DNA of 64,000 bases, taken from NCBI RefSeq assembly GCF_900109225.1, contig NZ_FNZK01000001.1:310001-374000 (forward strand), read 5' to 3'. Every line of letters begins with the position of its first letter. Position 1 is the first letter of the stretch. Below are positions 9,140 to 56,615 of this stretch, in pieces. The notes under the pieces were generated by a model, which had not been told where the DNA came from, searched no databases, and saw only the letters and a list, made by a program, of their open reading frames with translations. Origin of the DNA: Propionispira arboris (lineage in GTDB: Bacteria; Bacillota; Negativicutes; Selenomonadales; Selenomonadaceae). The position numbers were made by a program, and so were the translations under genes.

Positions 9140-9784
9140 TTGTCTCTATATCCGATTAATTTAGATTTAAAACGTAAAAAGTGTGTAGTTATCGGCGGTG
9201 GCAAAGTGGCAATGCGTAAAGTTAAGACATTGCTGAAGGCACAGGCACAGGTTACCGTGATTGCACCGAGTTTGGCTGCTTCCTTAGTAGAGCTCGCACA
9301 AGCGGAAGTAATTGTTTACAAACAAAAAGAATATAAGTCTGGAGATATGACTGGATTTTTTTTGGCCATCTGCGCGACCGATTCTTCTTTTGTAAATGCT
9401 GAGGCAGCGAAGGAAGCGAAGTTGAAGCATATATTAGTTAATGTAGTGGATCATTCTTTTCCTGGTGATTTTACAGTACCGGCTCAAGTTAGCCGGGGCG
9501 ATTTACTGCTTACGGTTTCAACGGGCGGCAAATCTCCCGCATTGGCGCGTCAGCTGCGAATTGAACTTGAAAAAGAATATGGCGATACATATGGAATATT
9601 ATTGGATATTATTGAAAAAGTTCGCTTGGAACTTAAAATGGTTCTGCCCAAAAGCAAAGAGCGAGAACAGTTTTGGCAGCAAGCGATGAATACCAAGATC
9701 CTTGCATTCGTAAAACAAGGAAAGTTAGAAGAGGCGGAGGCTGAAGTTAGAAATGCAATTGATAGTTTTAGGTCTAAATCATAA
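9140..9784 (+). CDS. precorrin-2 dehydrogenase / sirohydrochlorin ferrochelatase-type protein
   Basis: The 214-residue product matches the N-terminal half of CysG and SirC/Met8: an NAD-binding Rossmann domain (VVIGGGKVAMRKVKTLL, residues 15-31), followed by NVVDHSFPGDFTVPAQVSRGDLLLTVSTGGKSPALA with the conserved Asp and Gly-Lys-Ser-Pro. It oxidises precorrin-2 to sirohydrochlorin. TTG 9140 is chosen because AAAGAGG (9125-9131) lies 8 nt upstream; in-frame GTG 9131 and TTG 9110 are less well placed. It opens a tetrapyrrole operon and overlaps hemA by 32 nt. The partner methyltransferase is the CobA half of the fusion at 12051. Confidence 0.85.
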   Translation: MSLYPINLDLKRKKCVVIGGGKVAMRKVKTLLKAQAQVTVIAPSLAASLVELAQAEVIVYKQKEYKSGDMTGFFLAICATDSSFVNAEAAKEAKLKHILVNVVDHSFPGDFTVPAQVSRGDLLLTVSTGGKSPALARQLRIELEKEYGDTYGILLDIIEKVRLELKMVLPKSKEREQFWQQAMNTKILAFVKQGKLEEAEAEVRNAIDSFRSKS

Positions 9785-11066
9785 GACGGCACCAGTGGAT
9801 GTGCGTGAACGTTTTTCGATTCCGGAAGAGAAAATCCGGAGGGGGCTCAGACATATCGATGAATATGATGCAATGAATGAAGTAGTCATTCTTTCGACTT
9901 GTAATCGCAGTGAGGTGTATGCGGTTGTGGAAGATGCAGATGAAGATTTGCCGATGCTAAAACAGTTTTTATTTGATTTGGCGGGCAATGAAGAAGATAT
10001 TGATGATTATTTATTTTATTATGGCGGTGAAGAGTGCATTTCACATTTATTTGAAGTTTCATCCAGTCTGGATTCTTTAGTGATTGGTGAAGGCCAGATT
10101 TTGAGTCAGGTCAAAAAAGCTTATGCGATTGCACGTGAAGAGGGAACAACGAGTACCGTTTTAAATACATTATTCCATAGGGCGATTGCAACTGGTAAAC
10201 GTGTTCGAACAGAAACACGGATTGCCTATAATGCAGTTTCCGTCAGTTATGCAGCGGTTGAACTGGCCAAAAATATTTTTGGCGATCTTACGAAGGCACG
10301 GGTACTTTTGCTGGGAGCCGGCCAGATGGGGGAACTTACCGCACAGCATCTTGTGGATAAAGGCGTTGAAAAAGTTTATGTGGCCAACCGCAGCTATGAA
10401 AGAGCCGCAGAACTGGCGGAGAAATTTCATGGCGAACCAGTTGTGTTTGAACAGGCTATGAAGCAGGCTGTGGGGGTTGATATTATTATTACATCAACAG
10501 GAGCGCCGCATTATATTGTGAATACCTGGGAAACTCAGCAGCTTATGACAAAGCGGAAAGGTCGTCAAATCGTGTTTATCGATATTGCTGTACCGCGTGA
10601 TGTGGAACCAGAAGTTGCTGATATCAAAGGTGTGCAGCTCTATAATATTGATGATCTGGAAGCCGTTGTTGATGAGAATATTAAAGTTCGTGAACAAGAA
10701 GCAGAACAGGCGCGTGATATTATCGAAGAAGAAGTATATGAATTGGTCAATAAATTCCGTTATTTGTCATTTCGTCCCGTTATGGCACTTTTGGCGGATA
10801 AAGCGGATCGGATTCGCTGTCGTGAAGTGAAACGAGCTATGGCAAAACTTTCGGACATTACACCAGATCAGCGCAAAGTCATGGAAAATATGACGAAAAT
10901 GATTGTACGCAAATTGCTGCGGGAACCGATGACAAAAATCAATGGGTCAGCGGGTAGTGCCAATGAGCAGTATTATATTGATGCAATGCGCAATTTATTT
11001 AAACTTGATACGGTAAGGGAGCAGAGCAGTGAAGAAAAACATCATTATCGGTACGCGCAGCAGTAA
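9753..11066 (+). CDS. hemA: glutamyl-tRNA reductase
   Basis: This 437-residue enzyme reduces glutamyl-tRNA to glutamate 1-semialdehyde, the first committed step of C5-pathway tetrapyrrole synthesis. The N terminus MQLIVLGLNHKTAPVDVRER and the catalytic Cys50 in ILSTCNRSEVY are diagnostic; ESSSLDSLVIGEGQILSQVK-type sequence (SSSLDSLVIGEGQILSQVK, near 105-123) and the NADPH site LLGAGQMGELTA follow. GGCGGAGG lies 12 nt before the ATG. It overlaps the preceding gene by 32 nt and hemC by 38 nt, so translation of the three is probably coupled. Confidence 0.96.
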   Translation: MQLIVLGLNHKTAPVDVRERFSIPEEKIRRGLRHIDEYDAMNEVVILSTCNRSEVYAVVEDADEDLPMLKQFLFDLAGNEEDIDDYLFYYGGEECISHLFEVSSSLDSLVIGEGQILSQVKKAYAIAREEGTTSTVLNTLFHRAIATGKRVRTETRIAYNAVSVSYAAVELAKNIFGDLTKARVLLLGAGQMGELTAQHLVDKGVEKVYVANRSYERAAELAEKFHGEPVVFEQAMKQAVGVDIIITSTGAPHYIVNTWETQQLMTKRKGRQIVFIDIAVPRDVEPEVADIKGVQLYNIDDLEAVVDENIKVREQEAEQARDIIEEEVYELVNKFRYLSFRPVMALLADKADRIRCREVKRAMAKLSDITPDQRKVMENMTKMIVRKLLREPMTKINGSAGSANEQYYIDAMRNLFKLDTVREQSSEEKHHYRYAQQ

Positions 11067-11958
11067 GCTGGCGCTTTGGCAGGCAGAGCATATCGCAGCT
11101 TGCTTGAAAAAACAATATCCGGGCCTTACGGTTGAATTGAAACATGTCATGACCACGGGGGATAAGATACTTGATACACCGCTGGCTAAAATTGGCGGTA
11201 AGGGGCTTTTTACGAAAGAATTGGAAACGGAAATGCTGGCGGGTGATATTGATTTTGCTGTACATAGTTTAAAAGATATGCCGACGCAAATACCGGATGG
11301 CCTTTGTCTTGCTGTTATTACGAAACGTTTTGATTCAGGAGATGCTTTGGTCAGTCCAAAATATAAAACGCTACAGGCACTGCCGCAAGGGGCCAAAGTT
11401 GGCACATCGAGCCTTAGACGTAAGGCTCAGCTTTTGCATGTTCGCCCAGATCTCAATATTTGTGATTTGCGCGGTAATGTTAATACGCGGTTAAAGAAAC
11501 TTGAAACAGAAAATTTTGCGGCGATTGTACTGGCAGTGGCTGGTCTAAAAAGACTGGGGCTTGCCGATTTGATTACGGATATTATTTTGCCGGAAATTTG
11601 TTTACCGGCTGTTGGACAGGGTGCGTTGGCGATTGAAGCACGGGCCGGAGACGCAGCAGTTTTAGAACTTCTGGCTTTTTTAAATGACGCAGAGTCTGTA
11701 CAAAATTCTACGGCGGAACGAGCTTTTTTAGCGGCGGTCGAAGGTGGCTGTCAGGTTCCGGTGGGCGTTTATGCAGAAACGAAAGAAAATCAGCTGCATG
11801 TTGAAGCAGTTATTGCCTCGGTAGATGGCAAACGCTTGCTTCGTGATTCAATTACGGGCGCTGGTGTCGATGCCGATAAACTTGGGTTTGCTTTGGCACA
11901 GCGCCTGTTAGATGCTGGTGGTCGGCAGATTATGCAGGAATTAGGACTTTTATTGTAA
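11029..11958 (+). CDS. hemC: porphobilinogen deaminase (hydroxymethylbilane synthase)
   Basis: The 309-residue product polymerises four porphobilinogens into hydroxymethylbilane. It shows IGTRSSKLALWQAE at the N terminus, KIGGKGLFTKELE, the catalytic aspartate region FAVHSLKDMPT, and Cys241 in GGCQVPVG, which carries the dipyrromethane cofactor. The start is GTG 11029, inside the 3' end of hemA, with AAGGGAG 8 nt upstream. A 92-nt gap containing a long stem-loop separates it from the next gene of the operon. Confidence 0.96.
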   Translation: MKKNIIIGTRSSKLALWQAEHIAACLKKQYPGLTVELKHVMTTGDKILDTPLAKIGGKGLFTKELETEMLAGDIDFAVHSLKDMPTQIPDGLCLAVITKRFDSGDALVSPKYKTLQALPQGAKVGTSSLRRKAQLLHVRPDLNICDLRGNVNTRLKKLETENFAAIVLAVAGLKRLGLADLITDIILPEICLPAVGQGALAIEARAGDAAVLELLAFLNDAESVQNSTAERAFLAAVEGGCQVPVGVYAETKENQLHVEAVIASVDGKRLLRDSITGAGVDADKLGFALAQRLLDAGGRQIMQELGLLL

Positions 11959-11970
11959 AATTTTTTATAA

Positions 11971-12030
11971 AGAGGGTGCTTCAATATCGAGTTTCTGTTT
12001 TGTAAAAGCAGAAAACGAGAGGCAGCCTCT
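11971..12030 (+). other. imperfect stem-loop inside the hem operon
   Basis: Two nested arms pair: AGAGGGTGCTT with AGGCAGCCTCT, and CGAGTTTCTG with CAGAAAACGAG, giving a roughly 60-nt imperfect hairpin between hemC and the cobA-hemD fusion. It ends 12 nt before the AGGAGG ribosome site of the next gene. It lacks a proper T run (TTATTTATA follows), so it may be an mRNA-stability or partial attenuation element rather than a full terminator. Confidence 0.5.
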
Positions 12031-12050
12031 TATTTATAGGAGGATATATA

Positions 12051-13574
12051 ATGGCAGGTATGGTGTATTTGGTCGGAGCAGGTCCTGGAGATTATCAATT
12101 GATTAGTGTGAAGGCTTGTGAATATTTAAAAAATGCCGATACGGTTGTTTACGATCGTTTAGCGGATGAAAGAATTTTAAGTTATGCACCAAAGGGCGCA
12201 GAATTTATTTATGTTGGTAAGGCATCAAGTCAGCATACCATGAAACAGGATGATATTAATCAACTTTTGGTAGACAAAGCCAAAGAAGGTAAGGTTGTTG
12301 TCCGTCTAAAGGGCGGCGATCCATTTGTTTTTGGCCGTGGTGGCGAAGAAGCATTACTGCTATATGAAAATAAACTCCCTTTTGAAATTGTACCAGGGAT
12401 TACATCAGCGATTTCTGTGCCAGCTTATGCGGGAATTCCCGTTACACATCGGGCGGTTGCAACTTCATTTGCTGTTATTACGGGGCATGAAGATCCAACA
12501 AAAGGAAATTCCAATATGCGTTGGGATAAATTATCGACAGCGGTTGATACACTGGTATTTTTGATGGGGGTCGAAAATCTGCCGCATATTACGGCGAAGC
12601 TCATTGAAAATGGCCGCAGTGCGGACACACCGGCGGCTGTTATTCGCTGGGGAACCAAACCAGAGCAGCGTGTACTTGTAACGACGGTTGGTGAAGCTGC
12701 TGAAGCGGTGCGGAAAAACAATCTTAAGCCGCCAGCCATTTTTATTGTGGGTGATGTGGTCAATTTGCGAGAAAAATTGGCCTGGTTTGATAATCGATTA
12801 TTGTTTGGTAAAACGGTATTGGTAACGAGAGCTCGTGAGCAGGCCTCAAAATTAACCAGTCGATTAGAAGCACTGGGGGCACGCTGTATCGAAGCACCAT
12901 CCATTAAAATGGCAGCACCAGCCGATGCTTATCGTGGTGTTGATCAGGCAATGGATGACTTGGCAGGTTATGATTGGCTGATGTTTACAAGTACCAATGG
13001 TGTGGAACATTTTTTTGATCGACTTTTTTCCAAGGGCTTTGATACACGTCGTTTGGGAACCGCTAAAATTGCAGCGATCGGTGCAGCAACGGCGCAAAAA
13101 CTTCGTGAATACGGGATTATAGCGGATGTGGTACCCGTTGAGTTTAGAGCTGAAGGTATTATTGAGGCAGTCAAAGAGCAGATTACAGCAGGCATGAAGA
13201 TACTCATTCCACGGGCGCAGGAAGCACGTGAAATCCTGCCAGAAAAATTGCGTGAACTGGGAGCTGTTGTCACGGTTGTGCCAGTGTATCAAACCATAGA
13301 AGGTGACTTGAATGGTCAAGAAATCAAAACGATGTTAAAAAATGGTGAAATTGATTTGGTTACGTTTACTAGTTCATCGACGGTAAAAAATTTGCTCAAT
13401 ATTTTAGGTACTGATGGTTCCGCGTTGGTCAATCAAGTTAAAACAGCTTGTATTGGCCCAATTACGGCGCAGACTTGCCTGGAACATACAATCAATCCGG
13501 CAATTGTTGCTGAAACGTATACAATTGCTGGACTTGTGGAAGCGATCGAAGCCGATTTTTCAGCAAAAGCATGA
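12051..13574 (+). CDS. fused uroporphyrinogen-III C-methyltransferase / uroporphyrinogen-III synthase
   Basis: The 507-residue protein joins two enzymes. Residues 1-245 are a SUMT (CobA) domain with [36 protein letters not shown] and [20 protein letters not shown]; it methylates uroporphyrinogen III to precorrin-2 using SAM. Residues about 255-507 are HemD, which cyclises hydroxymethylbilane, with [24 protein letters not shown] and [13 protein letters not shown]. This CobA-HemD fusion is common in Firmicutes. AGGAGG lies 9 nt before the ATG. The fusion sits at the branch point between heme and siroheme/corrinoids. Confidence 0.95.
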
Positions 13575-13614
13575 TCTGGATTTTTAGATAAATATAATAT
13601 ATGGGGTGGAAAAA

Positions 13615-14589
13615 ATGATGAAGCAAACATTACGACCACGCAGAATGCGTATTTCAGAAGGTGTACGGTCCATGGTACAAGAAACGACATTATCGGCGAA
13701 AGATTTTGTATATCCGATTTTTGTTGTGCCGGGCGAAAATGTTAAAACAGAAATTCCCAGCATGCCAAATTGTTATCATTTATCAGTCGATAATGCGGTT
13801 AAATTAGCCAAAGAAATTTATGAATTAGGGATTCCAGCGGTTGAAATATTTGGCCTGCCTGAATATAAAGATGAAATAGGATCCAGTGCCTGGGATGCGA
13901 CGAGCCCTGTACAAAGAGCCATGAAAGCTATAAAAACAGAATTACCAAAACTTGTTATTATTGGTGATGTATGTATGTGCCAATATACAAGTCATGGACA
14001 TTGTGGGAAATTGTGCGGTGAATATGTCGATAATGATGCTACGCTTGAACTGCTGGCTAAAGTTGCGGTAAGTCAGGCTGAGGCTGGGGCAGATATGATC
14101 GCACCATCGGATATGATGGATGGACGCGTGGCCGCAATTCGTGAGGCTCTGGATGCGGCGGGCTTTATTAATGTATCGATTATGTCATATGCGGTAAAAT
14201 ATGCATCGGGATATTATGGACCATTCCGTGATGCGGCTGATTCTGCACCGCAGTTTGGTGATCGTCGTTCTTATCAGATGGACCCGGCCAATTCTCGCGA
14301 GGCGATGAAGGAAGTAGAACTCGACCTTGCTGAAGGTGCTGATATTATTATGGTAAAACCAGCTTTGGCGTATTTAGATATTGTGCGTCAGGTTCGCGAT
14401 AATATTGATCATCCGATTGCTGTATACAATGTAAGCGGTGAATATGCAATGGTCAAAGCAGCTGCTGCAAATGGCTGGATTGATGAAAAACGTATCGTTT
14501 TGGAAACGTTGACGAGTATGAAACGGGCGGGAGCAGATATCATTATTACATATCATGCCATTGATGCTGCCAGATGGCTCAAAGAATAG
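13615..14589 (+). CDS. hemB: delta-aminolevulinic acid dehydratase (porphobilinogen synthase)
   Basis: This 324-residue enzyme condenses two aminolevulinates into porphobilinogen. The Schiff-base lysines are Lys195 ([15 protein letters not shown]) and Lys248 ([10 protein letters not shown]). The cysteines of the zinc site are Cys120, Cys122 and Cys130 in [14 protein letters not shown], so it is a zinc-type enzyme. ATG 13615 is chosen over a GTG at 13606, which lies inside the GGGGTGG ribosome site. The gene follows the cobA-hemD fusion in the operon. A 75-nt gap with a copy of a dispersed repeat separates it from hemL. Confidence 0.95.
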
Positions 14590-14599
14590 GGGTTATGGT

Positions 14600-14645
14600 G
14601 TCCTGACGATTGCCATATAAAATGTTTAATGCGTTCTATATAATT
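14600..14645 (+). repeat. dispersed intergenic repeat, copy A
   Basis: The core TCCTGACGATTGCCATATA followed by AATGTTTAATGC is nearly identical to the copy at 63701-63805 and the left arm of the copy at 56667-56809. It lies inside the operon, between hemB and hemL, just before the hemL ribosome site. Confidence 0.65.
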
Positions 14646-14664
14646 AGAAAAGGAGGATTTTGAA

Positions 14665-15987
14665 ATGGCTCTTAATTTAGCGAAATCAGCGGAAGCGTTT
14701 GCTGAAGCGAAACAATATATGCCCGGTGGGGTAAACAGTCCAGTGCGCTCTTACCGGAGTGTGGATTGTGATCCGCCGTTTATTGCGAAGGCAAAAGGAA
14801 GTAAAATTTATGATATTGATGGTAATGAATATATAGATTATGTAGGGTCCTGGGGTCCAATGGTCATTGGACATGCGCATGAAGCGGTTGTTAAGGCTCT
14901 CCAAAAGGCAGTGGAACTGGGAACAAGTTATGGGGCGCCAACGCTTTTGGAAACAGAACTGGCAAAACGGGTCAAACATCTTATGCCATCGATTGAAATG
15001 ATCCGCATGGTAAATTCTGGTACGGAAGCAACGATGAGTGCGCTGCGTTTGGCTCGTGGCTTTACCGGACGGGAAAAAATCGTAAAATTCATTGGCTGTT
15101 ATCATGGACATCATGACAGTTTACTGGTAAAAGCCGGTTCTGGTATGGCTACGTTTGGTGTTCCTGACAGCCCTGGCGTGCCGAAAAGTGTGGCAGAAAA
15201 TACGATTACGGTTCCGTATAATGATGTTGAAGCCATCCGTAAGGTTATGGCGGAAAGCGGCAAGGAGATTGCGGCGATTATTGTTGAGCCAGTTGCGGGG
15301 AATATGGGGCTTGTTTTGCCAAAACAAGGCTATTTGAAAGAGCTTCGAGTTTTGACGGAAGAGGCCGGAGCTCTGTTGATCTTTGATGAAGTTATGTGTG
15401 GGTTCCGTGCTTCTTTGGGCGGTGCGCAGGCTGCATATGGCATCGTGCCGGATTTGACTTGTCTGGGTAAAATTATCGGCGGTGGTCTTCCCGTTGCGGC
15501 TTATGGCGGACGTAAGGATATCATGCTGCAAATTTCACCAGCAGGTCCAGTCTATCAGGCAGGAACACTTAGCGGGAATCCTTTGGCGATGACAGCGGGG
15601 ATTGAAACGTTAAAAATTATGACGGCAATACCGGAAGATGGTCAGCCGGATTATAGTCGTGTGCTGACTCTTAAAACGAAAAAACTACTTTTAGGTTTGC
15701 AAGTCGAAGCGAAAAAAGCCGGATTAAAATTGCAATTTCATCAGGCTGGCTCTATGTTTGGTATTTTCTTTAATGAAAATCCAGTTTATGACTATGAAAC
15801 AGCCGCGGCTTCGGATGCGGAAGCTTTTAAGGTTTATTTCAAATCGATGCTGGAACAGGGCATATATTTAGCTCCATCGCCATTTGAAACTGCATTTATG
15901 TCTGGGGCTCATAGTGATGCTGATATTGAAAAAACAATACAGGCTGCAGCCATTGCTTTCGCAAAAGTGGCAGCAATGACGAAATAA
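14665..15987 (+). CDS. hemL: glutamate-1-semialdehyde 2,1-aminomutase
   Basis: The 440-residue PLP enzyme converts glutamate 1-semialdehyde to 5-aminolevulinate. Hallmarks are [15 protein letters not shown] near the start, [34 protein letters not shown], the PLP-aspartate region [12 protein letters not shown], and the PLP lysine Lys269 in [23 protein letters not shown] precedes the ATG. It is the last gene of the tetrapyrrole operon; no ferrochelatase or hemE is seen, so the operon makes uroporphyrinogen III and precorrin-2 rather than finished heme. Confidence 0.96.
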
Positions 15988-16097: not shown

Positions 16098-16270
16098 GTT
16101 TGCGGAAGAGAGGCCAAGGCCCGCCGAAGGAGTAACACTCTCAGGCATTCACAATGGTGTGAATAGAACCGCAAGTGGACGGGACTCTGGAGAGTGCTCT
16201 TAATTGAGACGCCGAAGGTGAAAGCGGATTGTAATCTGTAAATCTCTCAGGCAAATGGACAGAGACAGGC
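16098..16270 (+). promoter_or_regulatory. tandem glycine riboswitch
   Basis: Two glycine aptamers lie in a row. The first (about 16101-16183) has GGAAGAGAGG, CCGCCGAAGGAGTAA and CTCTCAGGC. The second (about 16184-16268) has GGACTCTGGAGAG, GACGCCGAAGGTGAAA and CTCTCAGGCAAATGGACAGA. These are the conserved elements of the gcvT-class glycine switch, including the short linker between aptamers. A terminator hairpin lies 65 nt downstream and the regulated gene starts at 16450. Glycine switches usually turn expression on when glycine is bound, but the direction here is not proven. Confidence 0.95.
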
Positions 16271-16334
16271 ATGCTTTAACAAGCGAATTTTCGATTGTTG
16301 AAGTCTGTTTTGCCTATGCAATTTTTGATATCCA

Positions 16335-17695: not shown

Positions 17696-19849
17696 TTAAA
17701 TAGTCACTTTGTGCTCAATCGGTGTAATTAAAACGTCAATCTTGTCACCATTTTTGACGGGGGTGATAAACTCAGCGGATTTACCGTTGACGAGAATTTT
17801 AAACGTTACTTGACTTAAAGCACTTGGTGGATGAAAATCCGCCGCGAGCAGTACATCACTGACAATTGTTGTTTTGCGTTCGGATAGAGTGTATTCTATT
17901 TCGCTGCCATCATAGACAATTGTATTGGCTGTAGCAGATTTGCCGTTGACTGTCATTTGGCAGTTGGCCGCTGGCATTTTACATTCTGATTTATTAAAGT
18001 AGATAATCATATGCGTATCGAGTTCCGATAGTTTTATAACGTCGCCGAGTTTTGGGGATGTGGGTTCAATAAAATCAATTTCATCATTTGGAAAAACTTC
18101 AGTGGAAAGAGTGGCTGGATTTCCATTGATGGTGATGGTCGGTGATACGCTGAACATGGATTGTGCTCCATTTAGAAGATATTTAAATTTGCGCGCAGTG
18201 GGAGTGTAGCCAGCTTTTAGTAAGACTTCACCGAGAGTTTTTGTTTCATGCCAAGTGATTTCATCATGATCGACTAGAAGCTGCTGCATATCAGCGGATT
18301 GACCGTTGATGAGCGCGGTAGGGGGGATGCTTGTTTTACTGCCATTGATAAAAAGCATGACTGGCGGCATTGGTTTTATAATTGTTTGCAGCTTAACTTC
18401 AGGCGCCATGCCATCACAGCCATTTTCAATCGTTATTTTATCGCCATGTTTGATCGGGTCTTTGAGGGCGGCGATTTCTTCATTTAGCGTTATTTTAGCA
18501 TTTGTTCCCATGGTTCCAGCAAGATATTTTTTTTCGCCATTTAATGTAATCATGAGACCAAGGCCTGGTTTTCCACCGAGCTTTTTCAGATTGATACCAG
18601 CGGTCAAAAGTGCATCTGATACCGTCAAATGACCAAAGTTGAACAGACGGAATTCCTGTTCATTTACGGAAATACTTAAAAAGTGTAAGGCATTTAATGA
18701 AGCTATTTTGAGTATACCGAGTGGGGTGACAGCATCAGGAGATTTTAGTTCTTCGGGTATACTTTCGATTCCCTCAATTGTTTCTGGCTTACGGACAGCC
18801 ACCCGTGGGGAAGGAATATCCAGTGCCTGTGCGACCATTTCAGGCAGTTCAGGCGTTAGGGAACCACCGCCAACTAAAAGTACGGCTTGTGGCGCACCAC
18901 TATTTAATTCTAAAATCTGTTTAGCGATCGCCTGTGCAAGATCTAATATATTGGGCATGACACTGTCAATGACTTCTTTGGGGCTCAGTTTATATTCAAC
19001 GCCCAGAATGTCCTGGAAGGTTACTTTTCCTGCTTTGTCAGCCGAAATATCGCGCTTTACGGTTTCGGCAATGTTAAAGTCCAGCAGATATTTTTGGGAG
19101 ATGGCTTCGGTTATTTCGTCGCCGGCAAGTGGAACCATTCCATATCCGGTCACGGAACCATCTTTTGTTACAGCTACATCGGAAGTACCGGCACCAATAT
19201 CGACTAAGACCAGGTTTAAATGACGCATGGTTGGTGGAATCAATACGTTGATTGCGGCAATCGGTTCCAATGTAAGTGCACTCATTTCCAACTTTGCTGT
19301 ATCAAGTGCTGACTGCATCGAATCAATGACTTGACGCGGTAGAAATGTAGCAATAACAGTAGCTGTTGCCAGCTTGCCGCGTTGACCGACTAGCGTCTTA
19401 AGCTGGGTACCATCTAAGGTATATTTGACGGTACTATATCCTACACAATAATATAGAGTCGGGTCGGCAACTGTATTTGAGGTGGCAAGCTTGTGCTGCG
19501 CGGTTTGGATAGCAATAAAATCAAGGCTTCGTTCCGTTTCTGCTGTAATGACTTCGTTAATTTCAAGTTCCGCTTCGGAAGTCATTGTATATAAAGCACG
19601 TCCAGCTGCAGCGACGGCAACTTGTTTCAATGGTCCGGTTTTGACCTCCAAAGCATTTTTAACATCTTCCAAGATGGCTGCAACTTGTGGTACATCATGA
19701 ATCTGTCCATCAAGCATGGCTCTGGTGCGATGTTCTTTCCGTTCGGTGGCAATGATTTTTAATTGGCTGCCGTTTTGTTCGGCAACAATACCAATGACAC
19801 TTCTGGTGCCGATATCCAAAGAAAATAATAATTTATTTTTTGTAGCCAT
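17696..19849 (-). CDS. FtsA-like ATPase with a C-terminal beta-grasp-like repeat tail
   Basis: This 717-residue protein has an actin-like ATPase domain (about 1-385): LDIGTRSVIGIVAE (phosphate 1), LVDIGAGTSDVAV (214-226, phosphate 2), and AVLLVGGGSLTPEL (322-335, adenosine), with an SHS2/1C-like insertion near 30-105. Residues 390-717 are a tail of repeats, each with an NG turn and a later GD-I or DE-I motif, spaced about 60 residues apart (469, 528, 588, 648, 701). ATG 19849 is chosen because GGAGAT lies 5 nt upstream. It stands alone, away from any dcw cluster, so it is not the usual division FtsA. Its function is unknown. Confidence 0.8.
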   Translation of the reverse strand: MATKNKLLFSLDIGTRSVIGIVAEQNGSQLKIIATERKEHRTRAMLDGQIHDVPQVAAILEDVKNALEVKTGPLKQVAVAAAGRALYTMTSEAELEINEVITAETERSLDFIAIQTAQHKLATSNTVADPTLYYCVGYSTVKYTLDGTQLKTLVGQRGKLATATVIATFLPRQVIDSMQSALDTAKLEMSALTLEPIAAINVLIPPTMRHLNLVLVDIGAGTSDVAVTKDGSVTGYGMVPLAGDEITEAISQKYLLDFNIAETVKRDISADKAGKVTFQDILGVEYKLSPKEVIDSVMPNILDLAQAIAKQILELNSGAPQAVLLVGGGSLTPELPEMVAQALDIPSPRVAVRKPETIEGIESIPEELKSPDAVTPLGILKIASLNALHFLSISVNEQEFRLFNFGHLTVSDALLTAGINLKKLGGKPGLGLMITLNGEKKYLAGTMGTNAKITLNEEIAALKDPIKHGDKITIENGCDGMAPEVKLQTIIKPMPPVMLFINGSKTSIPPTALINGQSADMQQLLVDHDEITWHETKTLGEVLLKAGYTPTARKFKYLLNGAQSMFSVSPTITINGNPATLSTEVFPNDEIDFIEPTSPKLGDVIKLSELDTHMIIYFNKSECKMPAANCQMTVNGKSATANTIVYDGSEIEYTLSERKTTIVSDVLLAADFHPPSALSQVTFKILVNGKSAEFITPVKNGDKIDVLITPIEHKVTI

Positions 19850-20044
19850 AGGAAATCTCCTTAACAATAAAGAATTCAATAAAACAATACTACTTGTAAT
19901 ATTTCGCTGGTTTTAGGAAAGAATCCTTTTTCCGGCTGAAAAAACATGTTTAATTATAGAGAAAATTTACCGAATTGCTTTTTTATTGAAAAATTGAGTA
20001 TAATATAGTAAATAACAGGAAAAATAAGATAGGTAGTGGTAAAT

Positions 20045-21995: not shown

Positions 21996-23960
21996 TTATA
22001 TTTTTTGCCGTCCAGCTCCTGGCCCATCATTGGCAACTGCTACAGAAGCCTCTGTGAAGGTTTTCATATCGTTTAGCATATGTAGACTGGCATCGACTAG
22101 TTTCATACCAAGGGCAGCAATACAGCCGCCACCTGTCGTCATATTGAGGTTTAGATAAGATGGAATATCCCAATCCAAGGCAGAAACAGGTGGTGTTTCC
22201 GTACGTAAGATATAGTCTTTTACATTGGGGGCCAGATCAATCGCAATTTTTGCGGCAATTTCAGAAATGAAATTATCGAGTACGATGAGTGCCCCACCGT
22301 GGGCTGCACCCAAAATGAGACCAATCATGTATGCCAATTCTATATCGTTGGCCGCAGGTGTTTCGGAAGCTGGGGTATGAGGCTTAAGCAGACGATCTTT
22401 GAAGATTGTCAGTTCTATATAATTTGTGGTCAAAAGTTTTTGCAGTGCTTGTTTTACTTTCGTTCCACATATATCATGTCGCTGGTTTTCAGTTGTGGCA
22501 ATCCCAATGATTTGAGTACCTTGTCGGATTTCTTTCTCAGCCAAAAGCATACCGCCTTTGATCGCCGTCAATAAATCTTGTGACGGTTTAGGCAGTTCAA
22601 TCAGAGTGACCTTAGCATTTGCATGCTGGGCAAATGCTGCCGTGAGTTTTTGCTGCGTGCTTGACATATTGGCTTTTGAACCAAAACACAGAATTCTTTT
22701 TTGCAAGATATTCGGTTTTGCTGAGGCTGTAATGCCGGCAATTTTTACAGCAATTTCTTCTAATCGACCCAGGCTGTAAATTGGTTTGCAGAGATTATCA
22801 ATGCGAAGCTGACACTTTTCCATCGAAGATAGATGCAAGGGACGGATGGTGTCATTGTATTCTTGCAGTTCCTGTGTGGTTAGGGGTAACATAGCTTTTT
22901 CTGACTGACAGCAAAAAAGATCGGGTATATGGTCTTTTGTGAGTGCTGTATAGGCGAGGAGCATGCCATCCAGAAGATTAACGATGATGGAGGAACCGGT
23001 AGCTTCGCCAAGGCGAAAATGCATATCCATATAAGGCTGGAGGTTGAGTTTTTCTAAGATTGCTTGATGGGCGGGTTCTGCTGCTAAATGTGACCCCATT
23101 AGGTATTCTTTTACCGTGGGGCAGAGCGTAGCTGCGATAAGGGCGGCTGCACCAGTATTGAAGCCGTCGAGGACAACAAAAGCACGATTTGCTGCTGCAC
23201 CTAAAATGATGCCGGCAATACAACCAAGTTCAAATCCACCGAGTTTCATGAGGACATCGATTCCATCAGCTGGATTGGGCTGATTGACCGCCAGAGTTTG
23301 ACGAACGACATCAATTTTGACTTTAAGGCGTTCATCCGAGATGTTGGTGCCGCGGCCGGTCGCTTCTTCAGGGCTTAGATCGCATAGACAAGCTACGATA
23401 GCGGCACTTGATGTGGTATTGGCAATTCCCATTTCACCAGGTAAAAAGCAATGATAACCTTGCGCAGTATATTTTTGTACAAGTTCAATTCCGGTGTGCA
23501 AAGACTGAAGTGCCTCAAGCCTTGACATGGCAGCTCCTTTGGCACAATTTTTTGTTCCAAGGGCAATCTTACGATCAAGCAGCCCCGGTATTTTACCCAT
23601 CGGAGCTGCGATACCCATATCAACAACCACCATATGGGATTTTGAGAAATTAGCGAGGGCATTGGCTACTGCGCCTTTTGAAATCAGATAGTTTTTTGTC
23701 ATGTGTACGGTTGTTTCAGGTGGATAGGCACTGACTTTCATTTCGGCAACACCATGATCGGCACAGCTGATAATCGTACATTTTTTTGGCTCACTGGGAA
23801 TTTTTTCACCACTGATGCCGGCATAATTTAATAAAATACTTTTCAAATACCCCAAGCCTTCTACATTGGTCATTGTATCAGATAGTTTTTTTTGCACGTC
23901 GTGTATTGCTTTTTTATCGAGGGGCTTAATGTTTTTTATGGTTTGTGTCAGTAAATTCAT
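21996..23960 (-). CDS. fused CobT-CobT protein, probable ArsAB-type cobamide lower-ligand phosphoribosyltransferase
   Basis: One 654-residue frame contains two CobT-like domains. CobT makes the alpha-ribotide of the cobamide lower ligand from nicotinate mononucleotide. Domain 1 (1-345) has SCADHGVAEM (65-74), FLPGEMGIANTTSSAA (172-187), VLDGFNTGAAA and the catalytic Glu319 in RLGEATGS, but lacks the N-terminal PPGSLG motif. Domain 2 (about 385-640) starts with KPIYSLGRLEEIA (392-404) yet has lost the DHG region and has NMTTGGGC where LGEGTG should be, so it has no catalytic glutamate. In Sporomusa, ArsA and ArsB are separate CobT homologues that act together on phenolic bases. GGATCG-type site precedes the ATG; tex lies 13 nt upstream. 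Confidence 0.85.
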   Translation of the reverse strand: MNLLTQTIKNIKPLDKKAIHDVQKKLSDTMTNVEGLGYLKSILLNYAGISGEKIPSEPKKCTIISCADHGVAEMKVSAYPPETTVHMTKNYLISKGAVANALANFSKSHMVVVDMGIAAPMGKIPGLLDRKIALGTKNCAKGAAMSRLEALQSLHTGIELVQKYTAQGYHCFLPGEMGIANTTSSAAIVACLCDLSPEEATGRGTNISDERLKVKIDVVRQTLAVNQPNPADGIDVLMKLGGFELGCIAGIILGAAANRAFVVLDGFNTGAAALIAATLCPTVKEYLMGSHLAAEPAHQAILEKLNLQPYMDMHFRLGEATGSSIIVNLLDGMLLAYTALTKDHIPDLFCCQSEKAMLPLTTQELQEYNDTIRPLHLSSMEKCQLRIDNLCKPIYSLGRLEEIAVKIAGITASAKPNILQKRILCFGSKANMSSTQQKLTAAFAQHANAKVTLIELPKPSQDLLTAIKGGMLLAEKEIRQGTQIIGIATTENQRHDICGTKVKQALQKLLTTNYIELTIFKDRLLKPHTPASETPAANDIELAYMIGLILGAAHGGALIVLDNFISEIAAKIAIDLAPNVKDYILRTETPPVSALDWDIPSYLNLNMTTGGGCIAALGMKLVDASLHMLNDMKTFTEASVAVANDGPGAGRQKI

Positions 23961-23973
23961 ACGATCCTCCCTG

Positions 23974-26151
23974 TCAGGCTTCTTTGGGTACTTGTTTTAG
24001 GCTGAGGCCGATCCGGTGACGGTCGGCATCAATGCTGATGACCATTACATCAATAATATCACCAACGGATACTACATCGAGTGGATGGTTGACTCGTTTA
24101 TAGCTGAGTTCAGAGCGATGGATGAGTCCGGCTGTCTTGATGCCGATATCAACAAAAGCGCCGAAATCAGTTACATTGTGAACTGTGCCGCGCATAATTG
24201 TGCCGACAGCGATATCCGTTAACTTTACAATCGATTTACGCGTAAGCGGAGCGGGGAAATCTTCACGTGGATCACGTCCAGGTTTTGCTAAGGCATCAAG
24301 GATATCACGGATGGTTGGTACACCAGCATCAAGGCTGGCGGCCAGCTGATTGATATCGATCAATTTCATTTTTGCCTGCAAAATTTCAAGCTGGTGTTTA
24401 TCTTTCAAGTCTTGCAGCGTAAAACCGAGTTTTGCTAAAATACTTTCGGCTAGTTTGTAAGATTCAGGATGGACGGGGGTATTGTCCAGTGGTGATTTTG
24501 CCATACCAATACGAAGAAAGCCAGCACATTGCGTGAAAGCTGCCTGACCAAGGCGGGCTACTTTTAAGAGTTCTTTCCGCGCGGTAAATTCACCATTTTC
24601 ATTTCGGTACGTAACAATGTTTTTGGCTACGGTGGCATTGATTCCAGAAACATGTTTTAATAGCTCAATCGAAGCGGTATTGAGTTCAACGCCGACATGA
24701 TTCACAGCGGATTCAATGACATGATCCAGGGCTGTTGTTAGTCCTTTTTGATTCACATCATGCTGATATTGACCAACACCAATGGATTGTGGATCGATTT
24801 TAACGAGTTCGGCTAATGGATCTTGGACGCGCCTGGCAATTGATACCGCGCCGCGAATTGTGACATCATAGTCAGGCAGTTCCTCTTTTGCTAGTTTTGA
24901 AGCTGAATAAACAGAGGCACCAGCTTCGTTCGTGATAATATAATGGACATTGAGTTGATTTTCAGCAATCAAGTTTGCGGTAAATTCTTCCGTTTCATAA
25001 GAGGCCGTACCATTGCCAATTGAAATGAGGGTAACATTGTATTTTTTGATTAGAGCCAGCGTGGTTTCAGCGGCTTTAGCTTTCGCGTCATCGCTCATTG
25101 TAAGATAAAGGACACCATGGTCGAGTACATGCCCGGTTGCATCGATAACAGCCATTTTACAGCCGGTGCGATAGCCGGGGTCAAGTCCCATGACGACATT
25201 TCCCGATAATGGAGCTTGGAGTAAAAGCTGTTTAAGATTCATACCAAATACATGAATGGCCTGGGTTTCTGCATTTTCAGTCAGCAAAGAACGGATTTCA
25301 CGATCCAGTGCCGGAAACAAGAGGCGCTTGTAACCATCAGAAACGGCGGCGGTTATGATTTCGCTAAAAATTGATGGCTTTGTTATAACTTTATTTAAAA
25401 TTAAGCTGAGATTTTTTTCATGGTCGGTATCAAGCCGGACTTTGAGAAAGTTTTTCTTTTCACCGCGATTGATTGCCAATATGCGATGAGATGGTAATGT
25501 TTTGAGTGGTTCACTGTATTCTTTGTACATTAAAAATGCCTGACTGGCTTCATTTTCTTCAGGAAGTTCGGTCTGGATACGGGCATTTTGCCATAGGTAT
25601 TTTCGCAGCATTGAGCGGATGTCAGCTCGTTCACAGACTATTTCAGCGATAATATCCATCGCTGCCGCAAAAACAAGTTCAGTAGAATCAATTTCGTTTT
25701 CTGCATTTATATATTGTGCTGCGTATTCTAGTGGATTTCCACTGGTGATTTCTTGTGCCATGATCAGATCGGCGAATGGTTCAAGACCTTTTTCACGGGC
25801 AATCTGAGCGCGGGTACGTTTTTTCTGTTTATAAGGAAGATATAAATCCTCCAGATCCTGGAGTTTTATCGTACGCTCAATGGCTGTTTTTAATTCGGGC
25901 GTGAGCTTTCCCTGTTCTTCAATATTATTTAGTATGTCATCTTGTCTTTTGATGAGGTTGCGCAGATAGGCCAGGCGTTCTTCAATCGTACGGATTTGTT
26001 CTTCATCGAGTTCACCAGTTACTTCTTTTCGATAACGAGATATAAAGGGAACCGTATTTCCTTCATCTAATAATTTTATCGTTGCATCAATTTGATATTT
26101 TTTAACTTTCAGTTCATTGGCAAGATAAGCGCCAATTTCTTCTAAAATCAT
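23974..26151 (-). CDS. tex: Tex family transcription accessory / RNA-binding protein
   Basis: The 725-residue protein has the full Tex layout: N-terminal helix-turn-helix region (VPFISRYRKEVTGELDEEQIR, 34-54), the YqgF/RNase H-like domain (VVMGLDPGYRTGCKMAVID), the helix-hairpin-helix region (LLKHVSGINATVAKNIV), and a C-terminal S1 domain (GTIMRGTVHNVTDFGAFVDIG). Tex is a conserved cytoplasmic nucleic-acid-binding protein linked to transcription and RNA decay. It is 13 nt upstream of the CobT fusion on the same strand and is probably cotranscribed with it; a functional link is not implied. Confidence 0.95.
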   Translation of the reverse strand: MILEEIGAYLANELKVKKYQIDATIKLLDEGNTVPFISRYRKEVTGELDEEQIRTIEERLAYLRNLIKRQDDILNNIEEQGKLTPELKTAIERTIKLQDLEDLYLPYKQKKRTRAQIAREKGLEPFADLIMAQEITSGNPLEYAAQYINAENEIDSTELVFAAAMDIIAEIVCERADIRSMLRKYLWQNARIQTELPEENEASQAFLMYKEYSEPLKTLPSHRILAINRGEKKNFLKVRLDTDHEKNLSLILNKVITKPSIFSEIITAAVSDGYKRLLFPALDREIRSLLTENAETQAIHVFGMNLKQLLLQAPLSGNVVMGLDPGYRTGCKMAVIDATGHVLDHGVLYLTMSDDAKAKAAETTLALIKKYNVTLISIGNGTASYETEEFTANLIAENQLNVHYIITNEAGASVYSASKLAKEELPDYDVTIRGAVSIARRVQDPLAELVKIDPQSIGVGQYQHDVNQKGLTTALDHVIESAVNHVGVELNTASIELLKHVSGINATVAKNIVTYRNENGEFTARKELLKVARLGQAAFTQCAGFLRIGMAKSPLDNTPVHPESYKLAESILAKLGFTLQDLKDKHQLEILQAKMKLIDINQLAASLDAGVPTIRDILDALAKPGRDPREDFPAPLTRKSIVKLTDIAVGTIMRGTVHNVTDFGAFVDIGIKTAGLIHRSELSYKRVNHPLDVVSVGDIIDVMVISIDADRHRIGLSLKQVPKEA

Positions 26152-42693: not shown

Positions 42694-42715
42694 AAGACAC
42701 AAAAATCATGCAACA

Positions 42716-42803
42716 TCCCTACGCTGGCATTATCCAGATCAGGTTAAAGGGTCATAGATTTCATCAGATCTATATCTCAGCCAGCTTTTCCAGCTCCCCT
42801 GGT
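42716..42803 (-). promoter_or_regulatory. TPP riboswitch (THI element) controlling cytX
   Basis: Read on the minus strand it has AGGGGAGCTGG, GCTGGCTGAGA, GACCCTTTAACCTGATCTGG and ATGCCAGCGTAGGGA, the conserved THI-box blocks in order. It is expected to repress cytX when thiamin pyrophosphate is plentiful. Confidence 0.97.
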
Positions 42804-42837
42804 GACTTTTTTATTTAACTCATCGTATCATATTTAT

Positions 42838-56042: not shown

Positions 56043-56615
56043 ATGATTCAAATCTATACCGGTACTGGCAAGGGGAAGACGACAGCTGCTATTGGTCTTA
56101 CAATTCGTGCTCTTGGAGCTGATAAACGGATTTTTTTTATGCAGTTCATGAAGGGTCTGGCTTATAGTGAACAGAATATACTAAAAAATCTTTCGAAAAA
56201 TCTGGTATTGAAGACAACGGGAAAACCTTTTTTTATTGCCGAGGAAGGCATGCTGCCAGAGAAACAAAAAAAGGACTGGGGTGATGAAGTGGTCATTTTC
56301 CCAGCAGGAAAACCGCCAGCTGATTATATTGCGTTAATGGAAGCAGGCTTTCAAGAAGTAGTTGAAGCAGCACTGGCAAAGAAATATGACATGTTAATTC
56401 TTGATGAAATCAATGTAGCTCTTTTTTTTAAGCTTCTTTCACGTAAAACAGTAGAACAGTTCTTGCTAATTTGTCCGCCGGAAATAGAGATTGTCATGAC
56501 AGGGCGTAATGCTCCAGCATGGCTCATAGCTAGAGCCGATCTCGTTACCGAAATGCAGGAGATTAAGCATTATTATACAAAAGGGATACAAGCTCGCCTG
56601 GGAATTGAAAATTAA
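56043..56615 (+). CDS. cob(I)yrinic acid a,c-diamide adenosyltransferase (CobA/BtuR/CobO type)
   Basis: The 190-residue product has the Walker A loop IYTGTGKGKTTAAIG (residues 4-18) at its N terminus and the LILDEINVAL Walker B-like stretch, as in BtuR/CobO corrinoid adenosyltransferases, which add the 5'-deoxyadenosyl group to cobalt. An internal insertion between about 65 and 105 is longer than in typical members. GGAGA precedes the ATG. It fits the CobT-type fusion at 21996, since both work late in cobamide synthesis. A terminator follows. Confidence 0.85.
   Translation: MIQIYTGTGKGKTTAAIGLTIRALGADKRIFFMQFMKGLAYSEQNILKNLSKNLVLKTTGKPFFIAEEGMLPEKQKKDWGDEVVIFPAGKPPADYIALMEAGFQEVVEAALAKKYDMLILDEINVALFFKLLSRKTVEQFLLICPPEIEIVMTGRNAPAWLIARADLVTEMQEIKHYYTKGIQARLGIEN

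Follow-up and report, generated by a model that had tools for sequence, protein, structure and literature searches.

The window (the whole 64-kb stretch of Propionispira arboris DNA analyzed here) contains, on its minus strand, an ATG-initiated frame of 654 codons plus a stop, with no internal stop codons, that begins 13 nt after the tex gene located upstream on the same strand (window 23974-26151). It was found that the 654-residue protein scores 419.9 bits against the TIGR03160 model, for which 319.3 bits are required, and that a Pfam search with PF02277 matches it in three stretches, namely a full copy (residues 11-335) followed by two partial pieces (Table 1). Because these two pieces cover only profile positions 1-83 and 224-329, positions 84-223 are unmatched in the second CobT-like copy. 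The lid of the first copy is degenerate, reading NVEGLGYL compared to PPGSLG or PVGSLG in the aligned CobTs, and the ArsA catalytic and pocket residues (Tyr79, Met87, Glu176, Met177, and Glu319) are all present. The second copy contains the sequence PIYSLGRLEE, and its DHG region and catalytic Glu are absent. The original prediction had described the unbroken 654-codon frame (without giving its strand), a full CobT domain with Glu319 and a missing PPGSLG lid, and a shortened second CobT-like domain that kept PIYSLGRLEE and had lost the catalytic Glu and DHG; these descriptions were borne out by the open reading frame, the PF02277 matches, and the alignment.

Table 1. Positions in the window of the fused arsA-arsB gene and its parts.
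Feature	Window positions	Strand	Evidence or remarks
Fused arsA-arsB gene, 654 codons plus stop	21996..23960	minus	frame, PF02277, structure matches, tree
PF02277 stretch 1	22956-23930	minus	profile 1-316
PF02277 stretch 2	22614-22847	minus	profile 1-83
PF02277 stretch 3	22041-22343	minus	profile 224-329
ArsA half, residues 1-345	22926..23960	minus	phmmer 4hdk_A E 1.4e-105; ArsA group in tree; 4hdm_A superposition
ArsA N-terminal helices, residues 1-56	23793..23960	minus	dN/dS 0.189, CI 0.158-0.220; least constrained segment compared; missing from some relatives
ArsA catalytic core, residues 57-340	22941..23792	minus	dN/dS 0.086
Glu319, equivalent of Salmonella CobT Glu317	23004..23006	minus	E in 128/128 fused and 71/71 split ArsA rows (some genomes twice)
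Tyr79, S80Y position of p-cresol-bound CobT variant 4kqj/4kqk	23724..23726	minus	alignment
Met87, Q88M position of CobT variant 4kqj/4kqk	23700..23702	minus	alignment
Met177, L175M position of CobT variant 4kqj/4kqk	23430..23432	minus	alignment
Linker, residues 341-372	22845..22940	minus	family alignment, whole-chain model
ArsB lid, residues 373-415, contains DNLCKPIYSLGRLEEIA	22716..22844	minus	retained even in Pectinatus; dN/dS 0.095
ArsB large-domain remnant, residues 416-598, without catalytic motifs	22167..22715	minus	alignment; dN/dS
ArsB C-terminal helix and tail, residues 599-654, contains LHMLNDMKTFTEASVAVANDGPGAGRQ	21999..22166	minus	retained even in Pectinatus; dN/dS 0.091

The family to which each half belongs was evaluated by comparison with solved structures and by tree building. 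In a phmmer search of solved structures, the best match of residues 1-330 was the Sporomusa ovata ArsA (4hdk_A, E 1.4e-105), and the S. ovata ArsB chain matched residues 365-442 and 597-652 as well as the homologous stretch in half 1. In a 90-row tree that included S. ovata, V. parvula, and Dialister, the 41 ArsA rows, half 1 among them, came out as a single group (SH-aLRT 99), as did the 35 ArsB rows, half 2 among them (SH-aLRT 100), and the remaining 14 CobT rows belonged to neither group; in an 84-row tree without S. ovata, each half again fell in the ArsA or the ArsB group (SH-aLRT 100). The idea that half 1 is an ordinary CobT is thereby ruled out. Of 15 alignment columns diagnostic of ArsA versus CobT, 14 are ArsA-like in the window protein, 6 of the 15 reflecting the missing C-terminal helix. 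A one-chain ArsA-ArsB had been proposed, with a grouping of half 1 with ordinary CobT and of half 2 outside ArsB named as the opposing outcome, and the tree groups and the matches to S. ovata ArsA and ArsB support that proposal. As far as sequence reaches, the interpretation of the window protein as a natural fusion of ArsA and ArsB homologues is supported.

The S. ovata ArsAB is reportedly a NaMN:phenol/p-cresol phosphoribosyltransferase, and Newmister and colleagues are said to have described in 2012 that its two parts form a pseudosymmetric heterodimer. Compared to this enzyme (structures 4hdk, 4hdm, 4hdn, 4hdr, and 4hds), the fused protein is alike in that each half groups with one S. ovata chain, that the ArsA fold and pocket residues are conserved, and that labor appears to be divided between the halves in the same way. 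It differs in consisting of one chain and not two, and in its ArsB half, which is shortened in the middle of the domain and has lost the DHG-type region and the catalytic Glu, whereas S. ovata ArsB retains DNG and LGEGTG. With the Salmonella CobT homodimer (TIGR03160/PF02277), the window protein shares the fold and the catalytic Glu, and it passes the profile cut-offs. However, in CobT (12 clostridial sequences) the lid, core, and C-terminal helix are conserved to a similar extent, whereas here these elements are divided over two unequal copies, neither of which combines the lid, the core, and the C-terminal MxTF helix. A CobT domain is also fused in the BluB/CobT2 protein of Propionibacterium freudenreichii, as described in the accessible part of PMC4657239, although the partner there is BluB and here it is a second CobT homologue.

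Prediction of the whole-chain structure, which had been suggested as a check of the original prediction, gave a confident model (pLDDT 90.5, pTM 0.92), and half 1 of this model superposes on ArsA with p-cresol (4hdm_A; VIA Z 53.0, rmsd 1.3 Å over 331 residues, 50% identity). Among the structural matches listed, there was none of half 2 by itself to ArsB. The confidence of the model suggests that the two halves would be held in a fixed arrangement. A Pectinatus form of the protein was modeled with pLDDT 94.4 and pTM 0.94. The chains of archaeal CobT (MjCobT, 6pt8, 6pu6) align from residue 37-55 to residue 634-637 of the window model and to residue 456-477 of the Pectinatus model, and so stop in the C-terminal helix of ArsB, as would be the case with a cap in cis; because the alignments gave residue ranges only, they may hint at such a cap. 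The archaeal enzyme shares 15-16% identity, and in the part of PMC9561151 that was accessible it has Asp52 as general base and a different dimer.

The distribution of the fusion was evaluated by inspecting the locus in 127 genomes, which were picked to cover genera and families and are not a random draw. A single ArsA-ArsB frame was found in 96 (the window genome included) and two genes in 31; the single-frame counts omit L094 and L156 (G099), cut by contig ends, and L104, a weak match outside the class, and retain G081, G115, G130, and G134 although contig ends cut them. The fusion is present in all 85 genomes inspected from the window's family, which span 29 genera and whose named members are filed under Selenomonadaceae, and P. 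raffinosivorans DSM 20765 has the same single frame with 99% identity. Fused genes also occur in seven more families, three of which (f12, f15, and f18) show both the fused and the split states. A further 68 named loci comprised 28 fused ones, among them those of Propionispira, Megamonas, Schwartzia, Anaerovibrio, Pectinatus, Massilibacillus, and Propionispora, and 40 split ones, among them those of Sporomusa, Veillonella, Dialister, and Pelosinus. When 398 genomes of the phylum were searched, no frame from outside the Negativicutes, among the matches listed, extended past query residue 360.

Fusion of the two genes has occurred repeatedly. In a 92-row tree of the ArsA core, a single group (SH-aLRT 85) takes in 54 fused rows, and the other 7 fused rows sit among split rows or near the base. 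Parsimony on this tree needs 7 changes between the fused and split states, of which the starred branches force only 2. A single origin of all fused genes was rejected (p-AU 3.7e-6 against one clade, from a quickly built tree affected by long branches). Only one stop codon separates the two genes, which share a frame, at three of the split loci (G215, G241, and G306); therefore, a fusion is one substitution away.

The conservation of the lid and the C-terminus relative to the core was then expressed as ratios of sequence identity. For clostridial CobT the lid/core and C-terminus/core values were 0.91 and 0.85 (n = 12), and they were 0.55 and 0.44 for split ArsA (n = 40) as opposed to 1.45 and 1.65 for split ArsB (n = 37). 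The fused proteins gave 0.49 and 0.39 for ArsA (n = 60) and 1.66 and 1.83 for ArsB (n = 56). The C-terminal MxTF-type motif was present in 11/12 CobTs, 5/40 split ArsAs, and 35/37 split ArsBs, and in 0/60 and 47/56 of the fused ArsA and ArsB halves, respectively. Over 29 fused-gene pairs, the ArsA core (dN/dS 0.086), the ArsB lid (0.095), and the ArsB C-terminus (0.091) had similar values, whereas those of the ArsB middle (0.139) and the ArsA N-terminus (0.189) were higher; the ArsA N-terminus was more variable than the ArsB lid in 24 of the 26 usable pairs. A mirrored constraint, on the core in ArsA and on the lid and C-terminal helix in ArsB, exists already in the two-gene pairs, unlike in ordinary CobT, and the losses in the second copy of the window protein continue a trend seen in separate ArsB genes. 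From the identity ratios, the motif counts, and the dN/dS values, the ArsA/ArsB pair seems to have split the enzyme into a core and a cap ahead of the fusion, with the fused chain keeping one site.

The explanation that we consider quite probable is that the gene encodes a one-chain ArsAB, a NaMN:base phosphoribosyltransferase with one ArsA site that is capped by the ArsB lid and helix and that makes an alpha-ribotide, most likely of p-cresol or phenol. In the CobT dimer, this capping is done by the small domain of the neighboring subunit. For the fused ArsAB we infer a contact between the lid and the site, one active site per chain, and a phenolic substrate: the ArsA half would hold the single working active site, and the ArsB half, its own site lost, would have been retained for the two elements, N-terminal lid and C-terminal helix, with which it caps the site in ArsA. 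An aromatic base, with p-cresol or phenol the most likely, would be converted to its alpha-ribotide, which would supply the lower ligand of the host's own cobamide. That the dead half completes the active site had been proposed originally, and this role is supported by the mirrored conservation and by what erosion has spared (below), and weakly by the structure models.

The base used by the enzyme was evaluated from the pocket residues. The p-cresol-bound CobT variant 4kqj/4kqk carries, according to the structure titles, the changes S80Y, Q88M, and L175M, and alignment to Yersinia CobT identified Tyr79, Met87, and Met177 as the equivalents in the window protein. Tyr79 is present in 121/128 fused and 71/71 split ArsA rows and in 3/17 clostridial CobTs (some genes counted twice), the other 14 clostridial CobTs having Phe at this position. 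Met87 and Met177, however, are also found in 17/17 clostridial CobTs and were discarded as proof of phenol use, and the pocket as a whole is no proof of it since clostridial CobTs share both Met residues and, in 3 cases, the Tyr. Among the far CobTs, 31/31 rows have Gln where the window protein has Met87 (some genes counted twice).

An unlikely alternative is a protein that is a fused, one-site ArsAB by descent and whose natural base is a benzimidazole or purine, so that no phenolyl cobamides are made. It draws on the two Met residues common to clostridial CobTs, on the title of 4hdr, in which S. ovata ArsAB was solved with dimethylbenzimidazole, and on the open-access literature searched, which, in the text accessible, reports no lower ligand for a fusion-bearing bacterium. 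It is opposed by the distribution of Tyr79, by the 14 ArsA-like diagnostic columns, and by the search for benzimidazole synthesis, which covered the anaerobic benzimidazole gene model TIGR04386 only and had its best match in the genome at 630.7 bits, near but below the 700-bit cut-off. ThiH releases p-cresol, and a thiH gene, found above cut-off in the window genome, is a possible p-cresol source. The genome also has a second CobT, which weighs against the main explanation; it lies within a eutA-eutB-eutC-cobT-cobS-cobC cluster and may provide ethanolamine ammonia-lyase with a different cobamide lower ligand. Taken together, the pocket, thiH, the TIGR04386 shortfall, and the eut context of the second CobT favor, short of proof, a phenolic base for the fused ArsAB.

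Erosion of the ArsB half proceeds by degrees. Separate ArsB frames of just 267-327 residues were found at six loci (L175, L176, L181, L182, L183, and L191), and four Pectinatus proteins have 469-478 residues in total, with ArsB reduced to the lid and the C-terminal region (about 115 residues). This pattern bears on the idea that the second half is a mere scaffold for folding or stability that does not shape the active site. Such a role would agree with the drift of the second-half middle and the loss of its catalytic motifs, but it is improbable given that the parts surviving erosion are the lid and C-terminal helix elements of CobT, under a constraint equal to that on the catalytic core. A reading of the second half as decaying sequence, or of the fusion as an assembly error or pseudogene, can be dismissed despite the divergence of this half and its being shorter than ArsB, because dN/dS is 0.09-0.14 in all three of its parts, P. 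raffinosivorans has the 99% identical frame, and the fusion occurs in 85/85 genomes of the family.

The shortest forms have lost parts of both halves. In genus g10, the ArsA match begins at model position at least 50 in 11/11 loci free of contig-end cuts, and the ArsA N-terminus is therefore gone. The N-terminus is likewise lost in genus g14 (3 genomes, 393-394 residues) and in G067 of g10 (385 residues), where ArsB, too, has shrunk to little more than the lid and the C-terminal helix, so that the CobT elements begin with the core, continue with the N-terminal lid, and finish with the C-terminal helix. A permuted order was also detected by Pfam in G120, G091, and G078 (profile 46-48 to 307-312, then 2-5 to 45-54), and in G121, G122, and G067 Pfam detected the core alone. 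The tails of L152-L155 were scored with an ArsB model from which they had been left out, and reached 16.6 to 61 bits in total and 11.9 to 33.3 bits in the best stretch, compared to 4.9 bits for the best stretch among 1400 shuffled tails. A point against the permuted-chain reading is that the C-terminal stretch alone scored no better than the shuffles in L152 (5.3 bits) and L153 (2.3 bits), and so the C-terminal helix in these two is identified by the alignment and an MxSF motif.

A genome search found no second PF02277 frame in G067, G120, G121, or G122. CobS is present in G067 and G122 and was not found in G120 and G121 (genomes 91% and 85% complete). The missing ArsA lid was not found in the 600 bases upstream of the shortest forms, read in three frames with no positive control. 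With somewhat less assurance than for the one-site fused enzyme, we lean toward the view that this family records how an enzyme with two chains and two sites became, in nature, a single chain with one site, the 385-394-residue forms being circular permutations that arose by duplication and decay and probably single-site phenolyl-cobamide enzymes. The route would have started with a duplication and specialization into a core (ArsA) and a cap (ArsB), followed by repeated gene fusion and then by loss of the parts that served the dead site. As a separate observation, the Anaerovibrio-type proteins at L059 and L060 have about 55-60 extra residues after the ArsB lid region, and this insertion is shorter in L096.

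No description of a fused ArsAB was found in the open-access full texts searched, a scope outside which the primary ArsAB papers lie. A genome survey (PMC6461909) defines arsAB, in the accessible part of its text, as two adjacent cobT genes and counts 27 species as phenolyl-cobamide makers; because the rule needs two separate tandem genes and the window locus is one frame, it is blind to fusions. In the accessible part of PMC8123684, a table of 15 genomes includes no genus in which the fusion was found here, S. ovata and V. parvula are named as known producers, and phenolyl cobamides are given as 20-34% in the bovine rumen. Should the fused enzyme turn out to make phenolic alpha-ribotides, a family with rumen and gut bacteria would become a candidate source of these rumen cobamides. 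The succession of forms, from two separate genes to a permuted chain, would also offer an example of a dimeric active site becoming a single-chain one, with every step found in living species.

With regard to the neighborhood of the fused gene, a tex match lies upstream in 14 of the 28 named fused loci, that of P. raffinosivorans included, at 300 nt or less in 13 and at about 1.5 kb in L060; it was not seen in the other 14, several of which are cut by contig ends. No cobalamin riboswitch was found in the 64-kb window, the only matches over threshold being a glycine riboswitch (16177-16272, plus strand), ahead of a frame read as a periplasmic amino-acid-binding protein, and a TPP riboswitch (42699-42810, minus strand), ahead of a frame read as a permease. 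A 727-residue protein encoded at 17696-19879 was read as FtsA-like, with a long extension at its C-terminus, and has a 62% identical counterpart in Massilibacillus (L036). The ethanolamine ammonia-lyase genes at G000:C19 (L259, 3459-9472) are accompanied by their own far CobT, CobS, and phosphatase, and the order eutB-eutC-cobT-cobS recurs in L230 (G243) and L254 (G149). Tetrapyrrole genes (hemA, hemC, cobA/hemD, hemB, and hemL) were read from the sequence at window 9753-15987, and Pfam identified a BtuR-type corrinoid adenosyltransferase at 56043-56615.
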